From: Nereocystis luetkeana
Taxonomy: Eukaryota > Sar > Phaeophyceae > Laminariales > Laminariaceae
Length of the DNA stretch: 64,000 nucleotides
NCBI GenBank assembly: GCA_031213475.1
Contig: JARUPZ010000005.1
Coordinates: forward strand, 5,886,988 to 5,950,987
Reading direction: 5' to 3'
Shown here: piece after piece, positions 12,588-33,970 of the stretch
How the letters are laid out: the number at the start of each line of letters is the position of its first letter
How positions within the stretch are numbered: position 1 is the stretch's first letter
Notes under the pieces: model-generated
What the model saw: only the letters and a program-made list of their open reading frames with translations
The model's database searches: none
What the model was told of the DNA's origin: nothing
Translations under genes and position numbers: made by a program

Positions 12588-12596
12588 TACCTGGTA
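12588..12596. repeat. TA-CCTGG-TA word, empty in paralogous copy
   Basis: Here the sequence reads ata-TACCTGGTA-caaaac in outline. The matching site in the other copy of unit E (34561-34562) has only TA before caaaac. The difference is exactly CCTGG plus one TA. Confidence 0.85.
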
Positions 12597-12813
12597 CAAA
12601 ACAGCTGACGGCTTTGAGCGTTTTGGATTTATTCGCGTGGTCTACCATTTGTTTTGTGTTGTCGTTTACCGGTGTCGTTAGACCCATATTGTACCTCCAG
12701 TGTTATTATGCACAGATGCCTGTATGCCGGATTATGAAGCGTTCGGCGTTCTGAAGGCATCATAATTTTGAGTTCGAGAATAGGACATGTCCCTTTGAGT
12801 ATAAGCTTTGTGC

Positions 12814-12821
12814 TATTAATA
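12814..12821. repeat. TA-TTAA-TA word, empty in paralogous copy
   Basis: This copy reads gtgc-TATTAATA-gggttg. The copy at 34780-34781 reads gtgc-TA-gggttg. The difference is exactly TTAA plus one TA. Confidence 0.8.
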
Positions 12822-13281
12822 GGGTTGTCAACGTCGTTTACTCTCATTTGATACCGAGGCAAAGCTGACCGCCTTGGACAGGAAGGGTGGCACCCGATTT
12901 TGTCAGGATAAACAAGAGGAGCCAGGTGTGTTGCTTAGCTTCTTCTGGGAAAACAGTAGAAGGGAATGCCTAATGATACCAAGTAGTACTGGTATATGAG
13001 AGCAACATGATCGAAACAGCAACGCAATGGCGCATGTATCACAGGGACCTACACACACGCGCCTTAGAAAACCAGCTGCTTCATCGTGGCCCCGCCGCTA
13101 TGGGGGTAGGGGGGGGCACATCTTCCCCAGTACACCATTTATTTATTTCGTCCTTTTTCGCGATGAGGGAGGAAAACACGCAATCATACCACTCACTGCT
13201 GTGGCGGCCAATTGTCAGGGTCTTGAGTTCGCTTGATTTGATTGAGCGGGAAGCGTTAGCCGCAAAACCCTTTATTTCATA

Positions 13282-13290
13282 TACCAGGTA
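13282..13290. repeat. TA-CCAGG-TA word, empty in paralogous copy
   Basis: This copy reads ttcata-TACCAGGTA-cat. The paralogue at 35220-35221 reads ttcata-TA-cat. The bases on both sides match. Confidence 0.85.
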
Positions 13291-13310
13291 CATCATACGT
13301 AATGCACGTG

Positions 13311-15475
13311 CGTATATACTAGTCGTGCTATATTGTGTGTACTACTGCTGTTTAATACCAGGTAAAAAACAAAAAATCCCGTCAGCTGTGAGTTCAACCT
13401 TTGTAGCGCAACGTAATCATTCTAAGTACAGAGTACGTGGTAGTCAATACAGCCGTGGTGCACGAAGTAAAAACCTGGCAACCGGCGAAGATGTGGACAC
13501 GTTTTTACCAGGTACGTGTTTTTACTTGGTTGTACTGCATTTTTTTCGAAAACAAATGTTGGCGAGGGTCGCGGGACGTGAAACGGCAAAAAAACGGTTT
13601 TTAGGAACGAAACATGAACAGCCCGAATGCGGTGGAATCACTATATATCGACATACCAGTACAACTGCTGCTGTAGCAGTTCATGCACCAAACCCAGGGC
13701 TGCTGGTGTTGCCTACCCGTTTTAAGATTGTTGGAATAGACTTACACTTCGGGCTCCGGGCATCTACCATCACACAGCTACGAAGTCGACCCACCACTGC
13801 AACGACGAGACATACTATGCAGGAACCTGCTCGGGAGCCACCCGAAAACGACCAGCGGCTAGAGTGAGACAAACCCACGCCTTTCTCTTTCCCTTCGGTC
13901 TACGCGTCGCGCGTACTGCGTACCTGTGTTACAAGTGGTCGTCTCATCGCAAAGCACGCAGAGTTTCTTTTGTCATAATACGATGCCTACGGTGTCTCGC
14001 CATTGACATGCAAGGCGTGCATCTATTGTATATGCAACGCGTGTTCTCTGTTATCTGCCCCTCGCTCCTTCGCCGCGTGGGTGCAACAGTCTACAGCATG
14101 CGCATCAGTAGTATTGCAGTTATTCTCACACAACCTAACCATACTCGTACGCGAAGTATCTATCCGGGCGCTCTCAGTTTTTCTTTCCGGTCTGTCCATC
14201 CTTCCGACAATGCCCCACCCGATGCTCTGCCCCGCCCCTACTTGCCCTCCCTCTGCTTATTTACTCCAACGTTCTTGGTTCGCCACTGGTCCGGGCTATT
14301 CCCCATATTGTACAGTCATCAAGTCCTAGAGGTGAGTGGGTTACACGCCGAGTATAGAGTCCGCAGGCTGCAGCTTCCCTTCATCAAGAGTCTGTGCTCG
14401 GCGCGGTGCGACGGACTACAGCTGCAGTACTGATGTACTCGTGTCCCGATTTGTTTCGAAATTGAAAACCCCCAAGTCTGTACGTATGTTGGTATCATAT
14501 TATCACGTATCATACTGCTTGCTGTAATATCATACCAGATACATACTCGTACAACGCGTACGCGCTGCTGTGACTACAAGGACAATATCAGTTCTTGGCG
14601 TTTTCGGTGTTTAGGGTATTCCGGGGTAGTTGGTACCAGGTATTTTCTACTTTCTCCCAATCAAATCGGAAAGCAGCGCACTGCGAGAGCATACTCTTGG
14701 CTTCCAAGTTTTCATTGAGTAAGAAAAACAGCTGTGACTTGGCTGTGATGAGATCGAGGATTTCGGGGAAGCTGTGTGTGATACTTTGATCGCGCGTACT
14801 AAGGCATCGTGTAGGAAACCCAGTCCGTATCTGAGCAAGCCAAAATCTGAAGCTACATAATTCAAGGAGTGGGAGTTGATGTAATGATTGCACTGGGCTT
14901 GGTAATCGATCGGTCTTTTACCTCCATAGCTCAGTAGGCAATACCATCTCATTTGACGTCTCGTCAAGGACACGGGTTCGAATCTCACTTCGAACGCTTC
15001 TTTTATCGAAAGGCTTGCGTGTGCTCTCCCTAAAGACATATCTCCCTGGTTCTCCACGTATTGAAACGAAGCGGGTAGGTCAGCGTACGGCCGTATACGG
15101 TACCGATGCCCCGAAGATCCCGCGGCCCAGAGGGGAGGGGAGAGTGTTACCCTGGGATGGGGGATCAATCGATCTTTCGTACGAGGGTCGCCAGAATGTT
15201 TGGAAGGTTTCTTTCTTGACTTTTTTGTGGCTCTCATCACATACTGATTGCGGTGCTACAGTAGCTGTTGTGTTTGCTGGCAAGTGGCTGTAAGATCAGA
15301 TATAGCTGTACGGATACGTTCCCGCTCCATTATCACGAGATCGTTCTGGGTGTTTTTCCTCATGGCCTTCAACGTTTTCGGCAGTTTTGCTGCTTGCTTG
15401 CTGCTGTGGTCTGTGCCTGTAACCATAGCATAACTAAGTGTGCTGTCCTGCTCTGCTTGGTGCTGTTCGTTTATG
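13311..15475. other. No recognisable gene
   Basis: Frames are short or overlap on both strands. TACC(A/T)GGTA occurs at 13356-13364, 13506-13514 and 14634-14642. A tRNA-like fragment lies at 14926-14998. Confidence 0.45.
14926..14998 (+). pseudogene. tRNA-like fragment (possible tRNA-Arg-TCT relic)
   Basis: An A-box-like TAGCTCAGTAGG and a B-box-like GGGTTCGAATC are spaced as in a tRNA. A five-pair stem around a seven-base loop places TCT in the anticodon position. The acceptor stem does not pair and the T stem pairs poorly, so this is more likely a tRNA-derived relic or SINE head than a working gene. Confidence 0.35.
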
Positions 15476-15833
15476 AAGGATATACCACTGAGCTGCTTAG
15501 TCAGCTGACTCTGACTGAGTAGCTCAGTGGTCTATCCTTTGTGAAACGGTTCGAGTCCCGCCAGACGTCGTATTTCCGCTTTTTCTGCCGTGGTGGGTAG
15601 AAAAAGGGAATTCAGGTGGAGAGAACCACGATAAAAGCACACTCGATCAGATAGTCAAAAATGGAGTGAACCACTTGAGTAAAAGAACTCACGCCTAGGA
15701 AGGGGAAAAACCAGGCGCTGATTAGGGACTTGATCAACCCCGGAGGGTGTTATCGGCGGGAGGCCGTATCGAGCCCAAAGGTACTTATTTTGTTTGTTTT
15801 TAAAGGGTAGACCACTGAGCTGCTCAGTCAGCG
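15476..15833. repeat. tRNA-derived element with three related inverted arms
   Basis: About 29 bases containing CTGAGTAGCTCAGTGGT occur forward at 15512-15541. They occur in reverse complement at 15476-15505 and again at 15804-15833. The first two arms form a near-perfect hairpin. The second and third arms bracket about 260 bp. The forward arm contains an A-box-like TAGCTCAGTGG and is followed by the B-box sequence GGTTCGAGTCCCGCC near 15549. This looks like a tRNA-derived SINE head that was inverted or duplicated. The anticodon arm is missing, so it is not a tRNA gene. Confidence 0.5.
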
Positions 15834-16154
15834 CTGATTGCTATCGCCAGCTCTTGTACAGGTTTTGTTCTATGTGCGAGCACCAACATATACACAAGCC
15901 CTCAGAGCTAAAACGTAAACCGTGTCTTACACGAACCAAATACAATATACATACCGTGGCATGCAGTTAGTTGCTTGCGTCAACCTTCGTATTGTTCTAG
16001 CACATCTCCGAAAGGAAATATGTTATTCTAGATATATGTAGCTCTGTGCTCGCAAATTGTTTTTTTTTGTGCTACGTATTTAAACGCGATATTACAAATC
16101 ATTCCTATTCCCCCGGCGCAGGAGGCAGCGAGATGCCGCGATTTACCTAACCGT
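15834..16154. other. No recognisable gene
   Basis: AT-rich spacer without coding or structural features that I can support. Confidence 0.4.
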
Positions 16155-16323
16155 TTGCACCAAGGCTTGCGGCAAGGCCAAAAGCCTTTTCGCCCTGCGA
16201 TCGGGGCAGCTCCTCCTCCGCCGCCGCCGCCGCCGCCGCGGCGGTCGGCCTTCTCTCGTGCTGCTACTGTGGTTGGAGGCCAACCCCGCCCGACGAGAAG
16301 GATGACTGCTGCACCAGGCGAAG
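16155..16323 (+). pseudogene. Exon-like fragment resembling exon 2 of the downstream gene
   Basis: This frame encodes a Pro run, then RAATVVGGQPRP and a TAAPGEG end. It stops at a donor-like GCGAAG/GTAATA after one base of a codon. Exon 2 of the gene at 17892-19525 ends very similarly (Ala/Pro-rich, a RAAPVVGSPP segment, then CGGAAG/GTAACA) in the same phase. No matching start exon or phase-compatible third exon was found nearby, so this is probably a partial tandem duplicate. The 16324-17891 stretch holds only short conflicting frames. Confidence 0.35.
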
Positions 16324-17891
16324 GTAATAACTACCTGGGACACGGCGAGAAGTTGTCAACTACCAATCGTTGGTAGCACCGCGGAGCGAATTCAATCGCT
16401 CATCGGTGTTCTTTGTGGTCATTTTTCTTGGCACCATGCAATGTTTTTTGCATGCCGGTGGGATTCAGAGTACGAACATCGATGGTGACATGTGGAGCTC
16501 CTGTTGACACCGCCGATAGCAAGTCCTGGAGGCATAAAACCGCGGGGAACGTTTATGGTACTACCCCCCCCCCTCCCCCGATGCCCTTATCTCCGCACAA
16601 GGAGGAATGATCGTATCACGTAGTGTGTACCAGGTACGAAGTATATGGCAAGGCACCGACGAGGCAGTTCCATAGTAGATATATTGCTGTTTCTGGAAGT
16701 GACTACACCAGAAAATAAATCAATTCATTGACGTTATCATCTATGTGCAAGGCCGCCTCACAAGCGGTTCTTAGTAGGATTCACCTCACCCTTTGTACGA
16801 CTCGCTCAACACCTCGCGGCGCTTCACGCTTGGTGCAAGCAATGTCTGCCTGGCCGGTGAAGACCTGTTGTCCTCCGTCCCGGTATTGTAGAGATGCGAG
16901 GGTCTATGCTCGTACGACTACGGCCATGCATGACAATAGTACACCCCCCCGCGCCCCGGCTTCGGCTCCTGCAGCTTCACGAAACCGGATGGGAGGCCTC
17001 GCCTCCGGTTTTGGCCAGCATCTACCCAAAGCGCGAAAATGAACCCAATAGTGTTGTCGGAAAATGTCGAAGCTTTGTTGAAACATGAATTTCGACCTTT
17101 CGCATGGCAATGATTGTTGCGCAGCATCGCGTGCAGGAAATCAGGGGCTTTCGTGCCGCTCACCGTGCGACCGCGCACTCTCCTCGTCGGCACTGCCGGA
17201 GTCGACATCGCAGTTGCAACTCAGGTGAATTCACTCGCCACGCATGTCGCTATATCTAAAATGCGGGGAACGTTTTAGGTATTATTTGAATGTAAGGATC
17301 GTTTTGGGCATTCATGTGAGTAAGCACACGGCCCTTGCATTCTCAAGAGGGGGGGTATACTTCTCTAATAACAGGTGCACTAAAGAACCCTACTCTCCGC
17401 CTGTGAGGCCGGCGGTTGCCACAATGTCACTGCTGAGGTGTGTGTTCACTTCGAAACTGACGGCATGTATTAATGGCAGCCTGGCATCTCCGTGCAGTAG
17501 TACGTATTCGCCGCTGCAAGCGTTGCCAATCAAAACTGACGAGAACGGCTACATTACACCGATTTTTCTTGGAACTACCCCTTCAAAATGAGACAACCTA
17601 TATGGCCTAGGTGAAGAAACACAAATCAAACAAAAACCTGGGGCGGGCAGTTTTTTGAAGGCAGGCAAACTTAACAGCGCGGTTCAGGAGGCGAATAAGT
17701 TTGAAAAAATATCGCACCCTCGAAATTCTGGAATTCTTGGGAAGCAGACCGTTTACGGTTAAGGTGGATCCGACCAGTTGTTGTTGTTTACCATAGTGTA
17801 ATTGTTTCACCTTAGGTTAGCGTTCGCCGCACGTTTGCTCTCCTACTTACGGTAACGTCGCAAAACGGCCGTGGTACCGACAGTGTCGCCA

Positions 17892-19525
17892 ATGAGCGTT
17901 GCCGCGGACAGCGACTCAAATGAGACGCCCGACGCGGCAGACCCCCACGCCCAACCACAGGGGATCAGGTAAGAAGAAGCCTGTGGCAGAAATTGTTCCG
18001 GTGATCGTTCCGTCGTTGCTCTATCCTCCGTCTGTGGCGATACCCCCGTTTGCTGACCGACAACCCTGCAACGTTAGCTGATACCAGTATACGTATGGTG
18101 GCCTAACCACAGAGGTATTTTACGATGAAAGAAGCGCATTTCGACCACGGCTAGAGATTCATGTCCGGCTTTCTTACATCGAACATTCGAGGTACTCTTG
18201 AAGCGTCCTTCACTGGCTTATGGCGCATCCCACGGACCGACGAAAAAACGCCTTCGCTCCGAAACCAGGGGTTGCGCCGGCCGAGACGTACACCATCTTT
18301 GTCGCCTGGCAATATTCTCCCGTCGCGACCTTTGCAGGATGCCCCCGGCGCAGGAGGGAGACATAAGCGCCGAAGCACGATTGTGCCCGCCGACCAGACT
18401 GAGTGCGGCCCAAGTCCCAGCCGTTGCCAACGCCGCGTACCCCGCGCGCCGTCTGACGCCGTCGTCCTCACCGACACCGCGCCCGGCTGCCGCCAGGGCT
18501 GCTCCCGTGGTTGGCAGCCCGCCTAGCTCAACGATAAGGACCCGCCCTTTGCCAGCGGAAGGTAACACCTATCTCTTGTTTTGACGGGAAACGTGGGAGT
18601 CCCGGGAAGCGGGGGGGGAATGCGTACTGCTGTACAAATACTTACTGTACGGTCTCGACCTTAACGTTGTGCTCGACGCTGCCGCCCACTTCTGACAACA
18701 GCGTGTATGGCGGTATAACCGGTCGGCCGTGACGATTCTCGAGTGTGAGGAACGCCTGCGCAAAAGGAACACACATCGATCGAAATTTTCTCTTGTAGCA
18801 GTGAATAATGGTCTTTTCCTCGACCCGGCCCACACCCAACCTAGCCTAGTTTAGCCCAGCCTCGAAGTTTTGGAAGGGGGAGCGCTATTGCGAAGAAAGC
18901 CGAGGACTCGGTTGCCGTATTTGGTCAGTGATTCGCACTACAGTTTTTTTGTCGAGCTCGAGAAATTCGATGTCGAAGGATAGCTCCTGCCCCAAGCGGC
19001 TTTCGTCTCCAGAGGTATGAAGCCATTGATAAGCTGTGAACATGCCGGGTGATTTCACGCCCTGTTGGGCCGGTTGTTGTATACCAGATACCAGGTACAG
19101 CTCTACGAGCGCTTTCCAGCAACATATTTCGGTTCCCAGTGTCTCGCCTGTTTGTACGTTTTGCTTTCCTCTTGTTTTGCGATGTTTCAGACGAGATCCC
19201 GGGCACAGGATGCGACCAACCGGGGTGCGGGCGAAATATGTGCATGAACCCTGAAGGTGATATGGTGGCGGCGTCTATTTTCGAGGGGAAAAATAGCAAC
19301 GCGTCGGTGCCGTCGCGCTGGTTAGTAAAAGGGCGCGAAATGAATGCCAGGTATTTAGCGCAGAGACAGAAAATTGTCGCGCGATTCGTTCCAGGCTTGT
19401 ACATAAGCGGCCAGCGGCCAACACCCAGCGCAGTGGCTGTTGTCGCAAACACTATACAGGCTGGTTCAGGCCTACCGCCCAAAACTGAGCTCACCTCCAA
19501 TGTCATCGCGTCTTTTTTTAGATAG
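17892..19525 (+). CDS. Three-exon gene, unknown function (272 aa)
   Basis: I infer exons at 17892-17968, 18155-18561 and 19191-19525. The ATG at 17892 begins MSVAADSDSNETPD. Intron 1 starts GTAAGA and ends CTAG; intron 2 starts GTAACA and ends TTTCAG. The codons split by both introns complete correctly (AG+A, then G+AC), and the total of 819 bases is a whole number of codons without internal stops. That triple agreement is the main evidence for the model. The first two exons encode a low-complexity Ser/Pro/Ala-rich and basic region. The third encodes a more structured part with a Cys cluster (CDQPGCGRNMC), a basic helix-like stretch around REMNARYLAQRQKIVARF, and ends in ASFFR. I do not recognise the family. 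A zinc-binding or nucleic-acid role is possible but not shown. Further exons downstream cannot be excluded. Confidence 0.6.
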
Positions 19526-22500
19526 ACCCTGAAATTTGGCACACGTGTTCTATGACCCCCTTCCAGGCGGTTACCGAACGTATGTGTGCGTGTTTTTTCT
19601 CGCCAGATACTTTCGTGTTCGCACTTTTTTAGATGTTTTGGTCTTAAAGAGAAAAAAATACCGCCGGACTAAAACACCAGATAAAAATTTGCCAGCGGCT
19701 GGCATGGGTTCATAGAACACGCGGGCGAAATTTCAGGGTCTATCCCTGAACAATGGCGTTGACAATCGGACATTTGCGCGGTAAAAGTACAAAACTATAT
19801 TGCGTTGCCTCTTCATTACTTATTAATAGTGTAAATTTAGGATACACTTTTGTCTGTAAAATTAGATAAATATTTATCCCACGGAGTCAGTTCTTTGACC
19901 AATTGCACGAAACATTTTTTCAGGCATGCTATGGAGCTTTGGAATACCTGGTACCGGTTCGTCGAACACATTTGAAGAATGTTTGTTCCTACGGAAACGT
20001 CTACAGCTTATGACCATTGTTTAAGGCCCGTGGTTGGTCAAGACACACAATCTTTTGCGCTAGCGCCAACTCTAGGACCTCAATAAAGTATCTGACTGTA
20101 TCGCCCTCTCCCGCTGTTCAAGACGGTCAGTATCATCCCACCTACTATGTGAAATTCGAGTGGATATTGTGATCGGTATTAGTTATGGGCAAAAATTGGG
20201 GTGATGGACTTAAACAAGTTCGTAGCTAAACGAACTGCAGCACATCGCGGTTACTATCAGATGCCTACAAGACGAACGACTTAGTGCATAATTGTGATCG
20301 CTCGAGGTCCGATCCAGCCATGCAAAAACAGAAATAAAAAACGAGGTTCGACGCCAATACCTTTGCGGTTTGCGGACCATGGGACGCAACCTGCAAGGCC
20401 CACAGTTGACGGAAAAAATCGCGACGTGGTTAGGGGAGGGTAGGAGAGCGGGATGGGGGGCGGGAGCGTGATTCCAATTTCGCATGAATACAAGTGAAGG
20501 GACGACGAATCGCAGTTAGAAGTGCCTCTTACGGTCGAAACAGCGTGCTTTGACGATGTTGTCTGCGGGAAGTCTAAAACAGCTTACCAGGTATTATGCA
20601 GGAGGGGTTTATATGTTTCACAATATCCTTTAGAAAACGGGAAACTGCCAGGTGACCTCGCCCCCTGCCCCCCGGAGGCCTGAGACCGGGTGTGTACACA
20701 ATATAATATCGACTTCATATATATCTTCTCCACTTCCTCAATAAATCAAAACAGATTATGGTGAAAAGCTAAAAATGCAACGCGGCTGGGGCTAATCTGA
20801 AGAAGTTATAATTGTAGAGCAGGGCAAGGGTTGCCCTGCTGTCCCCTAGGTATTACCATTTAATACAAGGTTGGACGAAGGTGATGAAATTTCAGGGATT
20901 GTTTGGGCTTAGAAAAGCGCCCAAAAAGCAGGAACGATACGTTTGCAAAGACGTCGACCAGAAACAAAAATAACATGTATGTATGTACAGGGTATGTGTA
21001 TTTGGGGTAGGAGGGAAAAAAAAAGCAGCAGCGGTACAACAACACTATATATACTGCTGAGGTCAGGTGCATTAAATGGATTTGGGGTAGGAGTGAAAAT
21101 GCAGCAGCAGCGAGAACTGCATACTGCGAACAAAAAGACCAGCAGAGTACCATTGCCCAGTCATCGGGGCTCAGCCATTGACTCGCGAATACATGTCTAT
21201 TTGAAGTAGCGAGTCCAAATGTACGTAAAAGTACTGAAACGATTTTGTCTCCGAGGTTTTCTTCTTTCAGGAAAGTGATGAGTGATCAATGTTGAAGATC
21301 ATGCTACACATTGTCGGAAGGCAAGGGAAATAAGAATAGAGTCCTTGTGAGTCTCAAGGGTTCGAGGGGCTGAAATGACTGAGTCCTCGCGAGTCTCATG
21401 GGTACTTACAGTAGTTTCGAAATATTAAACTGCAACATAATATTACAGTCGAATCAGATTGCGATGGCCTCGACGTGCCGTGAACACACCCACATTCCAA
21501 TAAGACGCCCCAGAATAGTTCAAGATGACAAAAAAACATGCCAGGAGATGTTTCGCCGATGATCGTTACGTTCATACATGCACCTCGTGAACAAAAAAAG
21601 TATGTGGACAAAGAAGATTATATAAATACAGCTGCCCGGAACAATAAGGCCTCGACTTGCCGTGCAACGACCTGAACCAAAGAAACCAACGCAGGCACGA
21701 CCCCAACGGTGACGGATGGCAGGGTAGGTTGATCGTCGTCTTTCGTGAGCCGTTATCATCGTAGTAATATAGGTATGTATCGACAAAGCACGTACGGTCC
21801 AGACAGACCAATCTTCCCTAAGGGGGTACCGTTTGTTTTCCGTCATTTTTGAGAATTGATACGTGAAACAAAGTGCTCCAGGATCGCGCGGCTGAGAGGA
21901 ATCCAAAACCGGTGTTTAAAAGACAGCCATGAATAATGGCCTTTTTTTGGAAAACAGATGGGAAAATTTACCCCGAAATTTAGGGGGAAAAAAGGTTCGA
22001 ATCAAAATAAAAAGTAGAGACGGCGCCCAACGCATATCCGATTGGTCGACAAAACACATGTATGTAGACAGGAGTGGGTAAAATAATGTATTTTATATAT
22101 CTGTGGAACCCAGGGTCGGAGATATCGTAGATCTCGTAACACGCACGCGCGAAGGGCACGTCACCGGTCAAGCAATATCAAATCTCGGGTCACGAGCGGT
22201 CTCACGTCATTGACGGTGTCGACCCGTCCCCGGGAGATAGATATCCGGAGAATATCCGCCGCAGACTCTGGGGTGACAAAGAGTCCTCCTCACCGAGTCA
22301 GACTAGCTCTAGCATCTATCTCGTTGCTCAATATCAACGAAGAACTCTGCTCGGCTTAGGTCGGCCGTAACGACGGCTACAAGTGACCCTCGCCTCGCGA
22401 CCTCATCACGACGACTTTCCCGCGACTTCTACACTGCGACGCGTCCGCGACTACATCGGTGCGAACGGCGAGCACAGGTGCTACAATATATCCACAATGA

Positions 22501-23136
22501 ATGATGCACCTATCCAAACACGATAATATATATGCCATATACACCATGAAGATTCATGAAACTTATTTTATCGGCCCACATTTTTTTTCGAAAAATAAAC
22601 AAAATGGTACTGAGTCCAGGACCAATTCAGCTGAATCCGGGCGCGGGTTTTATACATCAATTCTGCCAGGTTTGCGCTAAAACCTCCACAGCCTGAGCCG
22701 GGGAAAAATGGGATTTTCGCCTATATCTCGCTTCAAAACATATAAAAATGAAGTCTGCACAAAAACAAACTGCCCCTGGACGAGATACTTTCGAAACCTG
22801 TGAAAAACGAAAAGGACAGCTGTGTCGGTCTCCATAATAATCCCAAAGTTTTGTCGCAAAAAACGAATTGCTCCGACGCAACGACGAAAACAAAAAAAAA
22901 CTGATACGATGGTTCGATCCGTCCGAAACAGAGCTTTCCGGCAAGACATTTTATGTGTTCTGAAAATAAGTGGCCGCCGCAAAACAATTCAATATTTGAA
23001 TGTCGAATTTCTGGAAAAAATATCATGCCTGGACGTATACAAAGTACGTACTCGTATACCGTAGTCTAACGCGGTAGTCTATAACAGTACAGCAGTCAGT
23101 CTTCTTGGTCAGTAGTCTTACTACTAATAATAGTAG
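19526..23136. other. No recognisable gene
   Basis: I see no supportable coding region. A unit of about 75 bp containing 'tttggggtaggag' and a GCAGCAGC segment occurs twice near 20998-21110. TACC(A/T)GGTA words lie at 19945-19953 and 20585-20593. Short matching 'gagtcctcgcgagtctca' type segments occur near 21340-21400. Confidence 0.45.
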
Positions 23137-24010
23137 TAGTCACGATGTTTACCCCCAATGTTGCCATATTTTCATCGTTTTTATTCGTTTTTGCGATTAT
23201 TATGTCGCTGAGTTTGAGTTTTTTTCCCCCCGTTTGTTTGGAGTTATGGTCGATCGTTTTGTTTCAATGTTTCGCCTGTTTTTTTCGTTCTCGTATATTT
23301 TTCGCATTTTTGTTGATTCTCAATGTTTTTCCGTAGAGTCTCGCCCTTCTTTTTTTTGTGATTGCTCGTATGCGAGCTGGCAGTACGCACGTATGGTCCG
23401 GAGTTATAGAAGGGAACGCACGTAAAGCACCGCTTGCATGTTTGTTTTCGAAGAGTTCACGACGTTTACCCCATTTTTGCGCATCGCTTTTATCCGCTTT
23501 GCGCGATTACCTCGCACAGTTTTGATATTTTCCCCAATTCTTCAGGGAGGTTTGGTCGATCGGTTGTTTCGAGTTCGTTTGGCTTTTTTTTCGTTTTCGT
23601 TTTTCTACCGATTTTGAACGCTTTTCCTCGGTTTCGTCCGTTTCTGGTATTTATGTTATTCGTGAGGCCTTTGTTCAGAAATATGAGCTGCGCTTGACTC
23701 TTGGTATGATTTGTCAAAGGGGACATACGTAACGTATCGCTTGCATGCTTGTTTTCGAAGGGGTTACGTGTTTTATCCCCTTTTTGCGATTTTTTTATCG
23801 TTTTGATCCGCTTGTCGCTTATGTCCGCTCAGTTTTCATTGTTTCCCATTATTCTAAGGAGTTTTGGTAGATCACTTTTCTCATTTTTGTTTGCTTATTT
23901 CGCTTTCTGTTTTTGCTTATTCATATTGTTGTTCCTCGGTTTCGTCCTTTTTTGGTATTTTTCTCAATCGTGAGGTACTTGTTCAAAAATAGAAACTACG
24001 CTTGACTATT
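23137..24010 (+). repeat. Degenerate tandem array, about three 300-bp units
   Basis: Units begin near 23137 ('cacgatgtttacccc'), 23459 ('cacgacgtttacccc') and 23763 ('tacgtgttttatcccc'). Each continues with a T-rich stretch, 'ttggtcgatcg'-like and 'cctcggtttcgtcc'-like blocks, then 'cgcttgcatg-ttgttttcgaag' before the next unit. The array runs straight into AF copy 2. It is T-rich on the plus strand and non-coding as far as I can tell. Confidence 0.65.
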
Positions 24011-24033
24011 CGTAGGAATACGAACAAGCGCCC

Positions 24034-24620
24034 GAAGAAAAAAAATCCCCGTCCCCTCTCATGTACCAGGAAATAATTTTCTGCCTGATTGGAACCCCTT
24101 GCACTGGTCAAAAAATAAAAAAATCGAACAGCAGAGCTTTTCTCTTAGCCTCGTACGCCGCCCGCCCGTCTCGCTACCACCTCACCACCGATTCGGTCCG
24201 AGCAAAGCCTTCGTCCCTTTCTGTCACAGTGAGCCCCGTCGCACGCCTCGCGTAAAGCCCGAGGCTCACCGTGGCCCTCGTTCGCCAGCTCGACAAAGTT
24301 GGTGCTCAGACTGCGTAGCTCTCTCTGTGAACTTCGGCTTGGTCGCAAAAATAAGCACCTCTTGAAATGCTGCTTGGCAATCCCGAACGAGCCTTCTAGA
24401 CCTTACAATTATATCCACAAATTCACCGATGGAGGGCAGACAGAGCCCATTCTTGCTTCCCTCGTGTCTCGAGGCACACCCGACGCCTAGCCACGAAAAC
24501 GTCGACCGCGCTCCTTGCAACCCCCTGCCTACCCCCCAGCACCCGCTGTCCTCCGCGACCGCGCCGGGCTCGCCCGCGGTGCCGTGCTCTGAGTACACGT
24601 ACACAAACGAAACGGAATAA
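24034..24620 (+). repeat. Dispersed repeat family AF, copy 2 (inner part)
   Basis: This matches the inner parts of 2390-2980 (inverted) and 29000-29560. It has 'TACCAGGAA' at about 24063-24071, where the inverted first copy has no insertion, which may be a mutated TA-CCAGG-TA word. The frame encoding the SPF-x-LP-x-CLEAH segment is kept. Confidence 0.6.
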
Positions 24621-24756
24621 TTTGTTTTTAGAAATATAAGCTACGATTGACTATTCGTCTGGCTACGAGTACGAGAAAGCGCTTCTATTCGTGAACGCGG
24701 TTTTTATTCGTAATTATTAGCTACACCTGACATTGTTTTTTTACCAGAAAAAGTTA

Positions 24757-25045
24757 TACCATGAAAGAAAACGTCACCTAACTTGGGTTTGGTGCGCCCT
24801 GATTGCCTCGTTTTTTATTTTAGTGTACCGTAAACTGGCAAAAACACACTTGTGTACCGTTTTTTTCTTATTTTGGCGATTTGGACGGACGGACATGGAT
24901 ATTTTGCCAGAAAACGGTTTACCTTGACAGAAAACGATATTTACCTTGGGTTTGGGGTACCCAGATTTCCTGGTTTCAATTTTTCGTACCGAAAACTGGC
25001 AAAAAAACACTGGTGTACCGTTTTCTTTACTTTTATCCAGTATAA
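24757..25045 (+). repeat. Two-unit tandem duplication, about 170 bp
   Basis: Both units contain 'gaaaac', 'ttgggtttgg', 'accg(t/a)aaactggcaaaa' and 'tgtaccgtttt' in the same order, starting near 24757 and 24926. Between this and the bromodomain gene (25046-25624) I see no supportable feature. Confidence 0.6.
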
Positions 25046-25624
25046 TAAGTTTTGGATTTTGCTCCTTAAAAACCCTAGATAAACTAAGGGAACTGCAGCA
25101 GGAGTCACCGACGACTCGCGCTTGCTGGGCGGGATAAAGAAGCTCTAGGCCCGCGTACTCCCCCGTCAGCAACGCATCTGAGACACTTCCCTTCGTCGCG
25201 CTTTCTCGGTTCCGTTGTCGACACGTGTTTGCAGGAATCCTGGTTTGCGGGCGACACCCTGACGTCGTCAACGTGGGCCCGCAATTATCCCAAAGGTAGG
25301 CATGTTTTCCCATATTCTACCAGGCTGCCGAAACGGTGGAACAGGCGTGGTTTGTTAACGGTGTTTCCTGCATCGGCCATTTTGACGCGGCTCGATACAA
25401 AACGCTTTCGCAGCGTTCCTTTCTTTTTGGCTAAAGCTGTTAATCGCCGCGCCGAGCTCTTTGCTTGATCGTCCGCGACAACGAGAACGAAACAACTCGC
25501 GCGCTTTCCGAAGCGAGCGTTCCGACGCGAGCTTTCGGAGGCGAGCATACCCAAACGTCCACTCTATATTGCGGTCCAAGGTATTGATTGATGGAAGATC
25601 GGTCGCGCGCTCTGCTTACCGTCT

Positions 25625-26680
25625 GTGATCTCCGCGGCGTCTGTCGCTCCCAGTAGGGAGCCGAAACGTAAAGGAACAGCGGATCCGAGTCAAAACGAAA
25701 AGAAGCCCACTCCTCGGACGAAGAGATCCCGTTCTAAAGGCGCCACGCGTACGCCCAACCGGCGCGCCCAGTCCCCAAGAGACAGCGGCCTACGGTCGCG
25801 TATTGGGCACATGACCGTGTGTGCAGAGTGCGACCGCCCCCCGCTTTTGTCGGATAATGTTGGGCTTTGTTTGATTTGCCCCAGAATCGTGTGCCCCGTG
25901 TGCCTCGCGGGAATGAGTTCTGCGGATATAGCTGCCGCGACGCTGAGCGACGCCGAACTTGCGAGCGTCGGCGCCCCCGACGGCCGCATCGAGGGAGCGG
26001 ACACCGTGCTCCGTCGGTGCCCGTGTTGCGTCCGGAAAACCGATCTGGCACTGCCGCCGCCGCCGATTGGGGCAAATGACAATGCCAAAAGAGACCATTT
26101 ACTTGAGCATCTCATGAAGCACAAGTTGTCGCTCTTGTTTCGGGCCCCCGTGGACCTCAGTGTGTATACGCAGTACCTGGATGCTGTGACCCGCGAAAAA
26201 TTAATGGATCTGGGAACGATGGTTGGCAAGCGTAGCGAAATTCAATCCACCAGGGGGCGGTGTGTCAAGCTCTTTTATGCAGAACTGCACCAGATATTCG
26301 ACAACTGCCGGGCATTTGCTTCGTGCGACCACGCGGGTAAACCCCTCAAAGGCGGCAACGAGGCCCCCGTGCCGGGAATTGTCAGGTGCGCCTATATTCT
26401 GGAAAAAATGGCGAAAGATTACGTAACGGTGCACATTGGCGACGACGTGCCGGCATTCCCGAAACAGTGGTTGACTGAATCGTGGAACCCGACTTGGCGC
26501 TGGGCTGGCGCTGGCTCTGCAGTCGGTGGGGGTGGCAGCGGTGGCGTCCACGGCAGAGTGGGAGGAGGCGGAGAGAGCGAGGGAGGCGCAGGGAGCGGAG
26601 GAGGAGGAGGAGGAGGAGGAGGGGGGGGAGGGGGGGGGGGAGAAGGAGGAGGAGGAGGAAGTGGAGGAGGAGGAGGATGA
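25625..26680 (+). CDS. Cys-rich zinc-finger plus bromodomain protein
   Basis: This frame runs to a stop at 26678-26680. First comes a Lys/Arg-rich stretch, a likely nuclear localisation signal (25655-25780). Then a Cys-rich zinc-binding region starts CAEC (about 25820) and continues with LCLIC, CPVC and RRCPCC (to about 26030), resembling a PHD or RING-type finger. Then follows a bromodomain (about 26083-26450) with a FRAPVD segment, MDLGTM (26204-26221), and the conserved Asn in DNCRAF that contacts acetyl-lysine in this family. The order matches chromatin readers that bind histone tails. The C terminus is a Gly tract inside a GGA microsatellite. There is no in-frame ATG upstream of a TGA at 25589. 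Either translation starts at the ATG at 25811, or an upstream exon is spliced on (an acceptor-like CCCAG occurs near 25653). Confidence 0.75.
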   Translation: MISAASVAPSREPKRKGTADPSQNEKKPTPRTKRSRSKGATRTPNRRAQSPRDSGLRSRIGHMTVCAECDRPPLLSDNVGLCLICPRIVCPVCLAGMSSADIAAATLSDAELASVGAPDGRIEGADTVLRRCPCCVRKTDLALPPPPIGANDNAKRDHLLEHLMKHKLSLLFRAPVDLSVYTQYLDAVTREKLMDLGTMVGKRSEIQSTRGRCVKLFYAELHQIFDNCRAFASCDHAGKPLKGGNEAPVPGIVRCAYILEKMAKDYVTVHIGDDVPAFPKQWLTESWNPTWRWAGAGSAVGGGGSGGVHGRVGGGGESEGGAGSGGGGGGGGGGGGGGGEGGGGGSGGGGG

Positions 26681-26835
26681 GGAGGAGGCGGAGGAGAAGG
26701 AGGCGGAGGAAGAGGAGGAGGAGGGGGAGGAGGAAGCGGAGGAAGCGGCGGTGGAGGAGGAAGAAGTGGAGGAGGATGAGGAGGAGGAGGGAGCGGAGGA
26801 GGAGGAGGAGGAGGAGGAGAAGGAGGAGCGCGGGT
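26590..26835 (+). repeat. (GGA)n microsatellite
   Basis: Degenerate GGA/GAG triplets cover about 245 bp, with two G-runs near 26620-26640. They code for poly-Gly in the bromodomain frame. In the next frame they give an acidic Glu-rich stretch that stays open to 26861, so small indels would swap C termini. Confidence 0.85.
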
Positions 26836-26861
26836 TGCCGTGGTTAACTAGAGCATGCTGA

Positions 26862-27566
26862 TGTCTGGTCCGACGAGTCGCTGTAGTAGTGAGGCAAACG
26901 CCCGCGGTATGATGAAATAAATGTATGTATTGATGTACGGGTAAAAGTAGAGGGATGCCGAGGCTGGTGTCAACTTCGAGAGGCGTCGAGCGGACGCGGG
27001 AGGGGTCATGGCGACGTGCGATTTGCGTAGAAAGTGGCATGCCCTGCGCAGTCTCTTCGAGGATAGTGCCCTGACCAGAAGGGTCCATAGCGTGTAGGCG
27101 GATGTTGTCTGCTATCATTGCTACGTGTAAGCCGTCGCGCGAGTTCCGCGTTTGCGGCGCCTCAACCGGAGCGAGCGCACGCACGCGGGCTCCTCGAACG
27201 TTGGCTATATGTGTCGGCCGGCGTTCGTCCACGACTGCGCGACATTTTCCCCCATGGTTTGAGGTCTGGTTTCGCGTCAAATAACAGATAAATGTGGCCG
27301 CATCAGCGGGTCAACGAGAAATGGTCGCGCGAGCGCGCAGCAGCAGCAGCAGTACGAGCATAACCAGTATGTGCTGGTATTGTGTCTTACAACTCCTTGC
27401 CTCCCTCAATCCAGCAACTCGGGCTACTTCACGTGGCCGGTGATGAACGTGCACGCACGTAGTCTTAATTAATGTAATAATAATGACCCAGTTTATATCA
27501 TACCTACCTGACACCGTGGTAAGCATGATATATATACGTTATACGTACGTGTCTGGTGTTGTTGTT
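26862..27566. other. No recognisable gene; possible 3' flank of the bromodomain gene
   Basis: AATAAA occurs near 26917 and could serve as a polyadenylation signal for the preceding gene. The 359-codon minus-strand frame through here is the shadow of the GGA repeat. Confidence 0.35.
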
Positions 27567-28000
27567 GCCCTCAATGAAATGCATTCGAGCGCTGTTCTTA
27601 GTTTACTTGTCTTTTTTTTAAGTCGCAGTTGAAGTCGGTGGGAGTGTGGAGAGAGACGAGTCGGCCCCGCACAGACGGCACCCCAGCAGACGGGGTTTGG
27701 CTCTCAGACTGCACGTCTGCTTTGTTTCCTTGGAAAACCAAGAACAAATGCTCGCGATTCGCGCTCGCGCGCATCATTGTTAAATACGGTTGTTGCTATA
27801 TTACGGGACAGAGTGGTATGCCAGTACACAGCAGCACGATAGCAAGCCGGGAGCAGGACGCCCCACCCCCCAACAACCATCAAAAGGTTGTGGTTTGCCT
27901 GGTCCATACGGCGGTCATGTATACGGGAAAGAACGTCTGCCGGTATCTGTATATCGCAGAATGTCTCCCCTCGACTCTACGAAAAGCCCACGGCTCACGG
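27567..28000 (+). repeat. Repeat family G, copy 1 (empty site)
   Basis: This matches 47980-48027 joined to 48827-49200, including 'gagtgtggagagaga', 'gacggcaccccagcag' and 'tatatcgcagaatgtctcccctcg'. It has GTTTACTTG at 27601-27609, exactly where the other copy holds a 799-bp element. The rest, 28001-28867, has no supportable gene. Confidence 0.75.
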
Positions 28001-28867
28001 CTCCGGTTCCGAGCGACGATGGAAGCCGGAAGCCGGAAGCCTGCCCATGCACTCGCACGGAAAGACGCAGTCCTTATCCGAAGCATGCTATCATAACGTC
28101 ATGTACAGTCCAGGCGGTGGTGGATCAGTGGGTATAGCTTGGAAGAAATTAATATTGAGCAGCTATATATTTTCTGAAATCGGGGAGACGAAATATGCTC
28201 ACAGCCTTCGCGAAGGAAGAACCCCTCTCATTTTTTTGATCGCGTCTCGCAGCGGGTACGCGTTCTCGATGGCAATGAGACCAGTGCCTTATAGCACGTT
28301 CAAGGCAACGACAGGGGATGATCAGACGGACATCCAAGCGCCCAACAAGAACCGCAGGTGTCTCGCGAGGAGCTGGAAAGATGGCCTTGGTGGTGGATGA
28401 GTGGGAGTGATTGTAGTGGGGGTGCAACGAGGGGGGGTCGGGGCGCTCCTCTCCCGGGACGACTTTGTATGTAGCCTCTTGAAGACTGTATCTTCCCCAT
28501 TCACCAAAACTCCCCGACACAGGCTGGAGGAACCCTCAGCACCGCTCGATTTTTCTGGCAAGCTCTCGCGCAATCCTCGACCGTCAAAACACCCAGCAGA
28601 AGCCACCATTTCATGTTTCCAACTATATACAGTACATCTTGTGTCTTGGTCGTGTTCGACAACGGGTCGACGACCTACTTCCCGCTTTATTGATGTGAGA
28701 ATCAGAGAACATAGTCGGCTTTCGGTTGTGCCGAAGCACAGCAGTCTATACCTGGTGTTATTTCGTATGGACTCGTTCGCACGTCTACTAAAAAGCTTGT
28801 ATCTTGGTACAAATTTCAACAACGAACGAGTCGGCCGCCAGGTACTTCCTGCCCGCTCGTCTTTGTA

Positions 28868-29560
28868 TGACACACAAGGTGCTTCGCTCCGTGGGCGGCC
28901 TACGCCGCCCGTTACGCTCGCTCAGGAAGTAACAGTACATCAAATGATAATGCGGAGCGGACAGAGGTCCATGATTGAGTATAGTGTTTTATTATGATCG
29001 TAGTTGCAAACTAACTGGCGACTTGATAATGCCAAGAGTCCCGCCGCCATGCTTCAGGAGAAAACAGCTCGGACGCCACATACGCTTCGCATCGCGGGTG
29101 GTTGCCGCATGTCCGCGTAAAGCTTTCCTCACTATCTGCCACAGTCAGCCCCGACGACCGCCTCGCGCGAAGCCCGGTGCTCACCGCGGCCGTCGTTCGC
29201 CAGCTCGACAGTATTGGTACTCAGACTGGGAGCTCCTTCTTTCAACTTCAGCGTGGTTGCAAAATTATGCACCGCTTAAATATTATCTTGCGATTTCGAA
29301 CGACCCTAATATCTCGTACATACTCTATCCAAAATCGCAAATGGAGGCCAGACAGAGCCCGTTCATGCACCTCCCGTGTCTCGAGGCACACGCGACGCCC
29401 AGGCACGAAAGCGACAACCGTGCTCCTTGCCCCCCCCCCTCTATCCGCCAGCACCCGCTGACACCCACGACGGCGCCGGGCTCTCCCGCGGTACCGTGCT
29501 CGGAGTACACGCACGCACACGAAACGAAAAAAGAAAAAAGGAAAAAAGGACCGAGAGTGC
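28868..29560 (+). repeat. Dispersed repeat family AF, copy 3
   Basis: The left part (28868-28985) is the inverted match of 1-112, including the GGGCGGC hairpin. The inner part matches copies 1 and 2, with the same open frame (SPF...CLEAH...RAPC...PCSEYTHAHET). Confidence 0.65.
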
Positions 29561-30660
29561 CAAGAGAAATGGAGAAAACAAATACCCGCTGGAAAGGTCC
29601 TGCAAGTGATGAAAGGAGGCGGTTTCGAAGTGGGAGCTATGAGATGCCAGGGATGTACCAACCGAGCACGCTCAGAGAGTGATATCTAAGTAAGTGGTTC
29701 TATGACAATCAGAATAGAAACCGAAATCGATTCGCTGTGGTACCGAACGACAGCAGCAGTCTATACCTGGTATCATATTGTTTTGACTATTTTGTACGTG
29801 TAATAAAAAGTTTGGAACTTTGTACAAATACAGTAGCAGTACATATTACCTGGTATTATTCTAGAATGACTCTTTGACATACGTTAAATAAAAATCTTGA
29901 ACATTGGTACTATCTTCAAAGAACGGCTTGATTGACCGCCACAAACCTTCTTCCCGCTTATTTTGAAACTTTTGGAAGCTGTAGTAGCCATTTTCAACAG
30001 TTGGATTCGCCCGCGAACCGTGGTTTGACCCCGTTAAAGTCAACATATGTGGGTGTTTGCGAGCCGGGTTTTGCATGCTGTTCGTGTTTTGACGGATGGA
30101 CCAGCATGAGGCGCAGAGTATTCTCGGAAGAATGAGAGAAAGTGAGTTTTGTACACACGTAAGAAATTTAGGCAATCAGATGAATGCTGTGTTTCACGGT
30201 AGCATGACTCGTAGCCCTTGGTGCACACACCTTGTCTGGTACGTAGCCGCAACCTACACGTAACAGCGCAGTGAAGCATAGTCAAAGTTACAGGCCCAAG
30301 GTGTGATACAGACTAGTTTGGCAAAGTGCAAACCTCGTTTCAAATATCAAAATATTCGAGGACACTATTAATAAGTACTTGCTGTAATTATTTATTTTTC
30401 GTTTCGGAAATGCTATCTGACCAAAACAATTAAATAGATTGACCTGGATTTCATTTGAATTAATTCGTACTGGAAATTGAGGTAATTAGTTATTTTCCGT
30501 CTTCGGACACACGAAAATATACGACGGCAATAAAGTGATCGACAGACGATTAACCACAGAACATACATGTCTGTACCACACAGAGGATTGGAAAGTGAAA
30601 GCGAACTACTTTTCGTCTTGAAGTTGATGCGATTTTTACTTTTTCGCGCTGCTATTAATA
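29561..30660. other. No recognisable gene
   Basis: Nothing beyond TACCTGGTA at 29764-29772 and 29847-29855. TATTAATAG lies at the right edge, next to unit L. Confidence 0.45.
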
Positions 30661-30777
30661 GTGTGTTCGTAGAGTCCCAACCTGGATGTCTTGACCACCA
30701 CGTGATCTGATGAGATTATTATATGTCGTTGTATCAGAGGACACAGGAGGAGAGAGAGAGAGAGAGGGAGAGAGAGA

Positions 30778-30824
<47 letters not shown>

Positions 30825-31440
30825 GAGAGAGAGAGAGAGAGCGGAGCCTAGCTCGCAGCTCGGGGCGGAAAACGGAGGGCTCGAACTCTCCTCATGAACA
30901 CACGGCAACATTCACAATAACGCTTGCAAAGATATACGCAACCCTCGACAACCTGTAAGCATCGCTGCTGGAACGATGCAAATGAACACGGCCGCACACC
31001 ATAGGTGTGTTTGTTCAATGACACTACGGTGCGCTTTGCGAGTGAGGTATTTTTGTTCTATGATACGAGTGTACGCATCTCCTCGACTTGCTTACACAAC
31101 AAAAGTGGTGTCTACAGTTGTACACTCATTTTCAAGTTGTAGTCTACTACAATGACCCATCGACATCGAGCATACCCAGATACCCAGTGCAAACTTTAAC
31201 TCCCCTTGACATCAACCATCTTCGTTCAGAACAACTCCCAGACGGTTGGGGTTGGGGTTACTGCTGTATACAGTTCGCCCTACTGCAGGGTACTTGTATC
31301 GACAAAAAGCACGCAACAACTCCTAGGAAGCAGCCAGGGGCCCCCATCCCCCCCCGCTCATCATAGCTTCCGTAAACCCCGTGTCGCTACCACCGGAGTC
31401 AAGCCCACATATCATAGGCTTCCTGTACTCTAAATTTATA
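30661..31440 (-). repeat. Unit L, copy 2 (LTR-like)
   Basis: This matches 11776-12470 but contains an expanded GA tract. Its left edge is abrupt: the match begins immediately after TATTAATAG. Together with unit E at 34450-35240 it could be a solo LTR interrupted by repeat D. Confidence 0.6.
30751..30842 (+). repeat. (GA)n microsatellite
   Basis: Nearly pure AG dinucleotides. The first LTR-like copy has only a short GA run at the same place, so the expansion came after duplication. Confidence 0.9.
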
Positions 31441-32043
31441 TATTTTTCTTCTCCGCCTTCTCGGCCGCTGTGAGCGAACCCTAAAATTCCGATTTTGTTT
31501 TCAACTTTGTCTGGGACTCCGGACGCCTTCGCTTCCCTGCCTTCGCGCTTGCTTTTTCGACCGCTTTCCTCGAGGGTCGAGCGAGCCGGCCTCCGGCGGG
31601 TGTTCTCCCGTGCGCGCGTTTCGGGGTTTTGCGCCACCGACGAGCGCGGCGACCCCGAACTTGAGGGATAGTTGCTGGGGAAAGGAGACACGGACGTTAT
31701 ATTTTCTGTGGTCTTGGAAATTTGTTTAGGTGTTTTTGCTCCACGAAGAGCTTCTTGTGACAGGCTTCATCTTACAGTAGTAGATTTTTGCTCTTCGAGG
31801 TTAGATCTCTCAGTCTCGCTGATGCTACCGCTTTCTACCGCTGCCTTGCTTTGCGGGCCACCGCCATCGGCCTGTTCGAACCCCTCGGTCCTGCCTTTCT
31901 CGGTGGCTGCCTTCCCTTGCCCCTCTCTCTTCGCCGGACGACTACATGCGCCTCTCGGGGTATCGCGCCGCTCTTGGTACCAGATCGTTGCATACCCCGG
32001 TGATTTTGCTTTGTTGGTGTTTTTTATATAACTATTGTGATAA

Positions 32044-32768
32044 GGGCCACTCCTAACGAACAAAGCAAATCACGATTCGTGATATTTTTGTCGTGAATCG
32101 TGATTAATTTGTCGCTTCATGACGCCAATATTTTGAGTTTCCTTAAAAAAACAAAATCACGATTCGTGACATTTGTCGTGTCTCCAATCACGCTTGCTCG
32201 AGGCACTACGCAACCGCCGCGCACCAACGGTATCGGAAGGTCGCTTTAGGGGTATGGTCGACTCTGCTTCGTACGGCGCTGGTGGACAACGGTCGGCTAC
32301 CCAAAGACACCTCTGAGCGCGGGCTAACGAGCAGGTTGTGGCCTCCAAATTTCGAGGAGGAGGAGGAGCCACAGCTTGAAGAGAAACGCGAAAATGACCT
32401 GAGGATCTCACAGGCCAGGCCGGACAGAGACGCCCTGCGAGATGGAACGTCGCTCCCCGGCCTTGGCCGACGGTCGGTGATTTAGGAATTTTGCAGGCTG
32501 GGTCAGGCTTCGGCCCGTGATTCGAATATACCACGGACCGGGCCAGGCGCGGTCGGCCCGGCTCGGCCTGGCCGTGCTCCACTCGCGAGAGTTGGCCCCA
32601 CCCGCAAAAGCCGTTGGGTTTAAATATCGGATTTTTTTACAGTTTGAAAATATCACGAAACGGGAAGTTTTTCGGCCTTTTTCGTTAGAACTGAAATGTC
32701 ACGGATCGTGATATTTTGGCATGCCAAAAAGTCACGAATCGTGATTTTTTTTCGGTTCGTAACGGCCC
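32044..32768. mobile_element. 725-bp Harbinger-like non-autonomous element
   Basis: The ends are GGGCC...GGCCC, flanked by TAA at 32041-32043 and 32769-32771. The other copy of repeat D lacks it (empty site near 51040-51046). TAA/TTA duplications and GGG-type ends fit the PIF/Harbinger superfamily. Near-palindromic TCACGATTCGTGA words cluster just inside both ends (32069-32110, 32155-32170, 32697-32745) and may be transposase-binding sites. No transposase is encoded. Confidence 0.8.
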
Positions 32769-33204
32769 TAACTCGGCACGTCTTCTGTTTTCGCCGGTAG
32801 AAAGGAATGAAGGTTGTTGGGGAGTATTGATTCGGCCGGGTGTTGATAATTCGATAAGAAAAAACAACCAATCACATCGGAGGGTATCTTACAGGTATAG
32901 CCGTATAAACATGCTCGGACTTTCCACTCCTACTGCTGAGTGAGGCGCATTGGAATACCAGTACTAACAACTACAGCAGCAGCAGCAGTACATATAGTAG
33001 TTCAGAGGTGTTCTACTTCGAACAAGTACGTACGTACAAAGCTTTGTTTTCGCCGGTCGAGTTGAATGAAGGTTGTTGGCAAGTCGGCCGGGTGCTGTGA
33101 GTTCGATAAGAAAAAATCGACCAATCGCATCGGAGAATATCATACACAGCAGACGTTTTTCACTTTGAGAAAATAATCATATCCAGTCCAGATGCGAGGT
33201 CTTT

Positions 33205-33239
33205 ATTTACTACCTGGTGCGTCGTACCAGGTAGTAAAT
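33205..33239. repeat. Perfect 14-bp inverted repeat containing TACCTGG/CCAGGTA
   Basis: ATTTACTACCTGGT (33205-33218) and its exact inverse (33226-33239) flank a seven-base loop. The outer part reads TA-CCTGG...CCAGG-TA, as would a minimal element ending in the footprint word. Confidence 0.85.
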
Positions 33240-33507
33240 GGGAGATACAGGTATAAGATATGATGTTCGGCTGCGTACCATTGCCTGTTGAAAAACGCGT
33301 CCAGCTGTTTCGGCGAGCACTACCGGAGGTAATCGAGGGTTGGAGACTGCTTGCTCAGACTGCAAGTACTCGCAGTATGTTGGAGTTTTGCGCTGCTGTA
33401 CGTATACTGCTGCGTGTGCTACACGTAATTCTATATCAAACATGAATATTTCGGTATTCACGCCATGAGAATACTGCCCATGTCGGCAGTACTTTACGGT
33501 TGTTCTG

Positions 33508-33516
33508 TACCTGGTA
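33508..33516. repeat. TA-CCTGG-TA word, empty in paralogous copy
   Basis: This copy reads gttctg-TACCTGGTA-ttgccg. The paralogue at 52002-52003 reads gttctc-TA-ttgccg. Confidence 0.8.
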
Positions 33517-33534
33517 TTGCCGATCGATATCAGA

Positions 33535-33550
33535 TACCAGGTACCAGGTA
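33535..33550. repeat. Two fused TA-CCAGG-TA words, empty in paralogous copy
   Basis: This copy has TACCAGGTACCAGGTA between 'atatcaga' and 'tcag'. The paralogue has a single TA at 52022-52023 between 'atatcagg' and 'tcac'. Two successive insertions at TA explain this. Confidence 0.75.
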
Positions 33551-33961
33551 TCAGTTATCAGGTGTTTAATACTGCTCATACTCGCAGTATCTCGAATACT
33601 GCCTGTTCTCAGGATTGAGTGCGATAATGCGCGTACAGTACGTGCCCTGTTCTCCCAGTAATTTGGGCGTATACAGCAAGTTGTTGTTGTCTTCTGTGAT
33701 GACGTACGTACCGCTGCTGCTGTTGTGGTGCTGCTGGTTTTGAGGCTGGGTCTGCAAAGCAGCAGCTGCAGCAGCCGACCGCAGCAGCAGCGATGCCTGC
33801 TACTACTCCTGCTGCTGCTGTTGCTGCCATTTATTTTGCGTATTGTGCTGCTGCTGCTATCGCTTTCACTTGCGGGAGAGACCCTCTCTTCTGCACAAGC
33901 GTCGTTGGAAGTAGGTACAGCTCGCCGTAGATAGGGGTGTGATATCGGCGTGGGTATTGGG

Positions 33962-33970
33962 TACCAGGTA
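33962..33970. repeat. TA-CCAGG-TA word, empty in paralogous copy
   Basis: This copy reads ttggg-TACCAGGTA-cttg. The paralogue at 52432-52433 reads ttggg-TA-cttg. Confidence 0.85.

Follow-up and report, generated by a model that had tools for sequence, protein, structure and literature searches.

The window analysed here is a stretch of 64,000 nucleotides from Nereocystis luetkeana (C5:5886988-5950987), in which short palindromic words, above all CCWGG and TTAA, stand between two TA dinucleotides. We interpret these words as scars of transposons that move by cut and paste, target TA and duplicate it on insertion, a reading to which we assign a probability of about 0.7. An origin as excision footprints is directly supported for TTAA by sequence comparison with a miniature inverted-repeat transposable element (MITE), and we infer it as likely for CCWGG.

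The genome comprises 465,085,209 bases in 1,987 contigs. Besides the window, we sampled 20 stretches of 10 kb at positions fixed beforehand on contigs C1-C7, as well as 30 loci, each 3,009 bases long and lying within the first 95 kb of C1, which were picked for containing TACCWGGTA. The merged sample amounts to 315,559 bases (315-kb set). The same sample without the 30 word-bearing loci (264-kb set) is the basis for the counts of abundance, flank readings, raw indels and TACC-N-GGTA words.

Words inserted with duplication of TA

Comparison of paralogous copies supports the view that CCWGG and TTAA words enter repeat copies as insertions duplicating TA. A preliminary description had reported copy pairs in which one member carries TA and the other TA-CCWGG-TA. 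Such pairs were seen again at 12588, 33508, 33535/33542 and 33962, and at 12814 the same holds for TTAA. The sites in the window, together with an altered word, are as follows (strand not assigned).

12588..12596: inserted word TACCTGGTA; the partner at 34552-34574 has a bare TA, and of 12 family rows in the alignment one carries the word.
12814..12821: inserted word TATTAATA, footprint of the TTAC MITE described below; partner at 34770-34791; present in 1 of 12 aligned rows.
24064..24072: altered word TACCAGGAA, scored as a 7-nt insertion; absent from three paralogous places, with one dissenting.
33508..33516: TACCTGGTA; the partner at 51992-52013 has a bare TA.
33535..33550: two TACCAGGTA words (33535 and 33542) with a common TA; the partner at 52012-52033 has neither.
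33962..33970: TACCAGGTA; the partner at 52422-52443 has a bare TA.

In the joined-flank test, the word and one TA were deleted by script, the flanks were fused, and paralogues with a bare TA were sought in the 315-kb set. Among 135 CCWGG sites, 32 were covered by a paralogue, and at 15 of these the paralogue had a precise bare TA, so that TA is duplicated around CCWGG there in the manner of Tc1/mariner-type insertion. The five classes of same-length controls gave 0/106 (0/17, 0/7, 0/29, 0/21 and 0/32), and the earlier proposal of an insertion that duplicates TA is supported by this difference. A shorter control class, CGNN, gave 1/29. TTAA had a precise bare partner at 6 of 14 covered sites, CCNNGG at 2 of 3 and CCN3GG at 0 of 5.

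A scan of 14,455 TA-N(2-12)-TA sites, with no preselected words, was likewise checked for paralogues with a bare TA. The top of the ranking was taken by ATA microsatellite units (ATAA 30/64, ATAATAA 25/51, ATAATAATAA 22/47), directly followed by CCAGG/CCTGG, bare in a paralogue at 15 of the 39 sites covered, and by TTAA with 6 of 17. The remaining words reached three sites at most (TA 3/58, CAG 3/28, CG 3/40), and single matches outside the CC...GG type exist, such as a 12-nt insert at window position 919.

Two further words that had been listed as insertions did not hold up: CTCGGAG/CTCCGAG was bare at 0 of 2 covered sites and CAGCAG/CTGCTG at 0 of 11, leaving CCAGG and TTAA from that list. 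The joined-flank test also rejected CSG (0/34) and TSA (1/25), while CAG/CTG gave 3/27, two of the three against one and the same copy in L031. The words TACGAGTA/TACTCGTA are over-abundant (62 versus 9.3 expected), and their bare partners are nearly nil, with 1 of 2 sites for CTCG and 0 of 7 for CGAG, the latter being rejected as an insertion as well. All nine TACTCSGAGTA copies of the window (58431-58997) lie in a tandem array at 58389-58997, which is built from units of about 42 bp with TACTCGGAGTA.

Gain versus loss

In the 264-kb set, 30 raw 7-nt indels were counted before polarising, 14 of them duplicating TA (24 and 10 after stricter merging). Indels of at least 4 nt were polarised when at least two paralogous places agreed and dissent amounted to at most half. 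This yielded 48 insertions versus 11 deletions. More specifically, the balance was 11 versus 5 at 4 nt, 7 versus 2 at 5 nt, and 11 versus 0 at 7 nt, where the insertions consist of seven exact CCWGG words, one TACCAGGAA and three other sequences. The word at L036:3427 is missing at 25 binned paralogous places with zero dissent.

The alignments around 12588 and 12814 contain 12 rows each, namely the two window copies and ten rows fetched from 42 matches. At 12814, TA is retained in 9 of the 11 rows without the word; at 12588, the row from L068 barely reaches the site and TA is lost in several rows. For 33508, 33535 and 33962 one pair of copies was compared each, and the direction was not settled separately.

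The TTAC MITE and the TTAA footprint

The parent of the TTAA word is a MITE of about 105 bp with the form TA-TTACGGGGG...CCCCCGTAA-TA, hereafter the TTAC MITE. As expected of Tc1/mariner-type elements, it carries terminal inverted repeats, TTACGGGGGACC...GGTCCCCCGTAA, which are present in most of 28 aligned rows, some being cut or altered, and of 38 strand-counted copies 36 have TA at either end. Comparison of the bare target AGCTAGCTG with the filled AGCTA-TTAC...GTAA-TAGCTG reveals a 2-bp duplication of TA. An assignment to PIF/Harbinger, which would entail a 3-bp TNA/ANT duplication, was rejected on this comparison. Beyond the GC-rich ends, TTA is read on the left and TAA on the right, with no direct repeat. 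Two copies lie in the window (strand not assigned).

41601..41712: TTAC MITE including the flanking TAs, the parent type of the TTAA footprint.
55521..55631: TTAC MITE including the flanking TAs; its right TA is common with a TACCAGGTA word at 55630-55638.

The word TATTAATA occurs 13 times in the window, versus a shuffle mean of 0.52 and a maximum of 2. Its relation to the MITE is seen in a repeat of L041, where a single TA site was followed through 17 places with a plus-strand expression that allowed only a bare site, TTAATA, the MITE or CCWGG as contents. Thirteen places are bare, some of them mutual duplicates, one holds the full MITE, and three hold TATTAATA, a footprint between two TAs at a site that also exists in bare and filled form.

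Furthermore, the word and the element share a target preference. The MITE prefers T, A and C at positions -3, -2 and -1 (0.69, 0.61 and 0.58), and the flanks of TATTAATA, after removal of AT-repeat neighbours, show the same bases at 0.56, 0.52 and 0.51, versus 0.30, 0.29 and 0.19 for all TA. The log-odds flank profiles of the two correlate with r = 0.97. Ends of the form T[AG]C were found at 11/36 MITE ends and 24/124 ends of the TTAA word versus 1,219/33,258 for all TA, the two ends of a site not being independent. Because of the three-state site in L041 and the matching target preference, we conclude from these sequence comparisons that the TTAA word is an excision footprint and that TATTAATA words derive mostly from the TTAC MITE and its relatives. 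In the sample, 62 words stand beside 18 MITEs. For TTAA, the idea of a footprint in the preliminary description has direct support, with its parent found.

Mechanistically, a few terminal bases would stay on both broken ends when an element exits and would be joined between the two TAs. For the TTAC MITE, a 3-nt TTA overhang could pair with itself through TA, or filled-in TT/AA ends could be joined, either of which would produce TA-TTAA-TA.

Abundance and shape of the CCWGG word

TACCWGGTA occurs 182,395 times genome-wide, or once per 2.5 kb, versus 1,744 occurrences of the reversed control word. The window contains 32 copies, versus a mean of 0.30 and a maximum of 2 in 100 dinucleotide shuffles, and the 264-kb set contains 105. 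Both centre and spacing are narrowly defined: 105 of 109 TACC-N-GGTA words have A or T in the centre (TACCSGGTA, 4/109), and these 109 words compare with 15 that have two and 12 that have three central bases. The balance of A and T at the centre was considered as evidence for mismatch repair and discarded as uninformative, because random orientation by itself gives any palindromic word an equal balance.

At the 70 of the 105 places that were inspected visually, the flanks mostly bear no resemblance to one another, the places in L041 being related among themselves. The base preceding the word is A or G at 219/266 ends versus 20,428/33,258 for all TA. Words with one mismatch number 127, versus 40 for the control word and beside 136 exact words, an excess that suggests a spread of ages. 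TACCWGG without a following TA was found 113 times on both strands of the 315-kb set, while 60 shuffled 7-mers average 37 each. The excess is thus modest, and decayed words are part of it. A doubled word was also encountered in nine stretches of viral contigs, one of them with a third word, and was read as chance.

CCWGG as the probable footprint of a second family

The comparison with TTAA suggests that CCWGG is probably the footprint of a second transposon family targeting TA. Its flank profile is distinct from that of the MITE (correlation -0.27). Such a family would favour a purine before TA, and its ends would probably start with CCA or CCT. Its exit would leave CCAGG or CCTGG and, more rarely, other CC...GG variants, by way of a 3-nt CCA/CCT overhang with a one-base overlap or of a 5-nt CCAGG overhang, and excision would have to be frequent enough to account for 182,395 exact words.

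The variants seen at TA include CCCTGG (L031), CCAAGG (L037), CCCTGCCTGG (L049) and CCTGCGTCTAGG (L041), with sizes of 6, 10 and 12 nt, while a CCTCG insert in L041 is an exception to the CC...GG pattern. The earlier claim that the inserted words are palindromic, apart from a mismatch at the centre at most, fits CCWGG and TTAA, and longer inserts such as CCAAGG and CCTGCGTCTAGG depart from it. In addition, 4 of the 28 aligned MITE rows carry distinct inserts on the same strand at one central TA (CCTGG, CCTTGG, TCCCTGG and CCCTGCCTGG), flanked by AAATATA on the left and TAGGTTTT on the right, and one of these four rows has an additional CCTGG at a second TA. Independent repair of excision breaks would explain well the differing inserts at a single TA, and size variants of CC...GG, like the four inserts, are expected when breaks are repaired imperfectly.

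Several observations weigh against this interpretation. No element with CCWGG or CCA/CCT inverted ends adjoining TA was found in the 315-kb set, so that the footprint reading is, for CCWGG, one that we infer. Five terminal-inverted-repeat candidates in this set that start with CCA/CCT and have their boundary at TA were composed of CCWGG words themselves, and no parent was recognisable among the larger insertions listed for it. TACCWGG ends show no convergent excess, with convergent and divergent counts of 4/4, 12/9 and 23/27 within 0.3, 1 and 3 kb. Of the covered CCWGG sites, 17/32 lacked a precise bare TA in the joined-flank test. Tc1/mariner footprints usually measure 2-4 nt, and CCWGG has 5. 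Finally, the ratio seen for TTAA predicts about 39 parent copies beside 133 CCWGG words; none was found in the 315 kb, and the parent is therefore nearly gone, or rare and very active, or absent.

Three individual candidates for the parent were rejected. L044:5457-6447 is an element of about 1 kb whose ends read CAGGGATGCGTATTTCC and whose duplication, CCTGGTAC, measures 8 bp; it is hAT-like and itself inserted in a CCWGG word. L050:3040-4247 is a short repeat next to a stretch resembling a short interspersed element (SINE), and in L032:6412-9152 the inverted repeat extends beyond TA. In L007 (C1:26150-), a 29-bp stretch at about base 2208-2236 reads TACCTGG, 15 nt, CCAGGTA, and is possibly a miniature of the CCWGG parent, or chance. 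Separately, L050:4428-4996 is a 569-bp element with ends CCGTAATCATGCGAAGG, which begin with CCG, adjoining TA; its bare partner lies in L044.

Alternative explanations

The strongest competitor is a micro-insertion process that has no parent. Here CCWGGTA would itself be the 7-bp unit, placed directly at TA either by a nuclease or transposase-like enzyme carrying a short DNA of its own or by a templated polymerase, and this would have happened at about 180,000 places. Three points agree with it: the 315 kb contain 133-136 words and yielded no parent, a single word dominates strongly (109 TACC-N-GGTA versus 15 and 12), and bare sites retain exactly one TA. We nevertheless regard it as unlikely: the variable inserts CCCTGG, CCAAGG, CCCTGCCTGG and CCTGCGTCTAGG at TA resemble repaired breaks, the TTAA word in the same genome is made by excision, and we know of no such process.

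Considerably less probable is a word linked to selection or methylation and maintained by point mutation or selection, not by insertion, as has been proposed for the cyanobacterial HIP1. The extreme abundance of a single short palindrome is reminiscent of HIP1 (excerpts of PMC4390886), but copies gain the word as a 7-nt insertion with duplication of TA, in surroundings that are mostly unrelated by eye. Selection may act on the words after insertion.

That the words are ancestral and the word-free copies mere deletion losses has very little in its favour beyond the fact that a two-copy comparison by itself cannot separate gain from loss; this was what would have overturned the preliminary description, and for the polarised cases it failed on the 11:0 balance at 7 nt, on the L036:3427 word with its 25 word-free places, and on the minority state of the words in two family alignments, that of the 28 MITE rows and that of the 12 rows at 12588 and 12814 (1 of 12 at each).

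Other features of the window

An element of about 0.8 kb at 48027-48836 has ends GGGCCGGTCTTATCGAGGGCAA with TTA at both sides, and a copy near 27605 is without it; its 3-bp duplication makes it Harbinger-like. Remains of a Copia-type retrotransposon lie at 9446-11390 (minus strand), with matches to gag (PF14223) and the Pol beta-barrel (PF22936). An open reading frame at 25625-26680 (plus strand) has a bromodomain match (PF00439) and continues into a GGA repeat. Rfam gave no hit in the window nor in 15 of the 20 random stretches, and a tRNA search with bacterial settings found none in the window.

Comparison with known systems

Excision footprints are normally too short to be recognised. Here they form words of 8-9 bp, long enough for counting and for a comparison with bare sites, and past excisions in this genome could be measured from the 182,395 exact CCWGG words. 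These words make up a large share of the sampled short insertions (seven exact and one altered of 11 at 7 nt), which bears on indel models. What remains odd is their number, together with a parent that was not found; if it is true that no parent exists, they would represent a new mutational process. Among the titles and abstract openings listed by literature searches, none concerned a genome-wide CCWGG footprint, and TACCAGGTA matched only unrelated titles.

The ends of Mos1 begin with CCA. In the Sleeping Beauty type of chemistry, 3-nt 3' overhangs are left and make up the footprint, with duplication of TA (excerpts of PMC7827188). The words described here resemble the footprints of such Tc1/mariner elements (Sleeping Beauty, Mos1) in the duplication of TA, in the terminal bases held between two TAs and in their near-palindromic form, which arises because both element ends are alike (same source). 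They differ in length, with 4 bases for TTAA and 5 for CCWGG where those footprints have 3, in the presence of some 180,000 CCWGG words, and in a CCWGG parent not found in 315 kb.

Stowaway elements end in CTCCCTCC, whereas the TTAC MITE ends in TTACGGGGG, comes from another lineage and is outnumbered by its footprints. With the Stowaway-type MITEs of grasses, for which the term 'excision footprints' is in use, it shares its short length, a non-autonomous nature, duplication of TA and the capacity to be excised (excerpts of PMC1925063 and PMC4423477).

Among eukaryotic algae, Ectocarpus likewise possesses Mariner-Tc1 families and MITEs, with 17 such families whose copies are mostly non-autonomous (parts of PMC12477816); a word search of the main text of that paper returned none of 'footprint', 'excision' or 'mite'. 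The density of CCWGG has a likeness in the cyanobacterial HIP1, also a single short palindrome of extreme density (PMC4390886, in excerpt). Unlike HIP1, the word in Nereocystis is acquired by insertion with duplication of TA.

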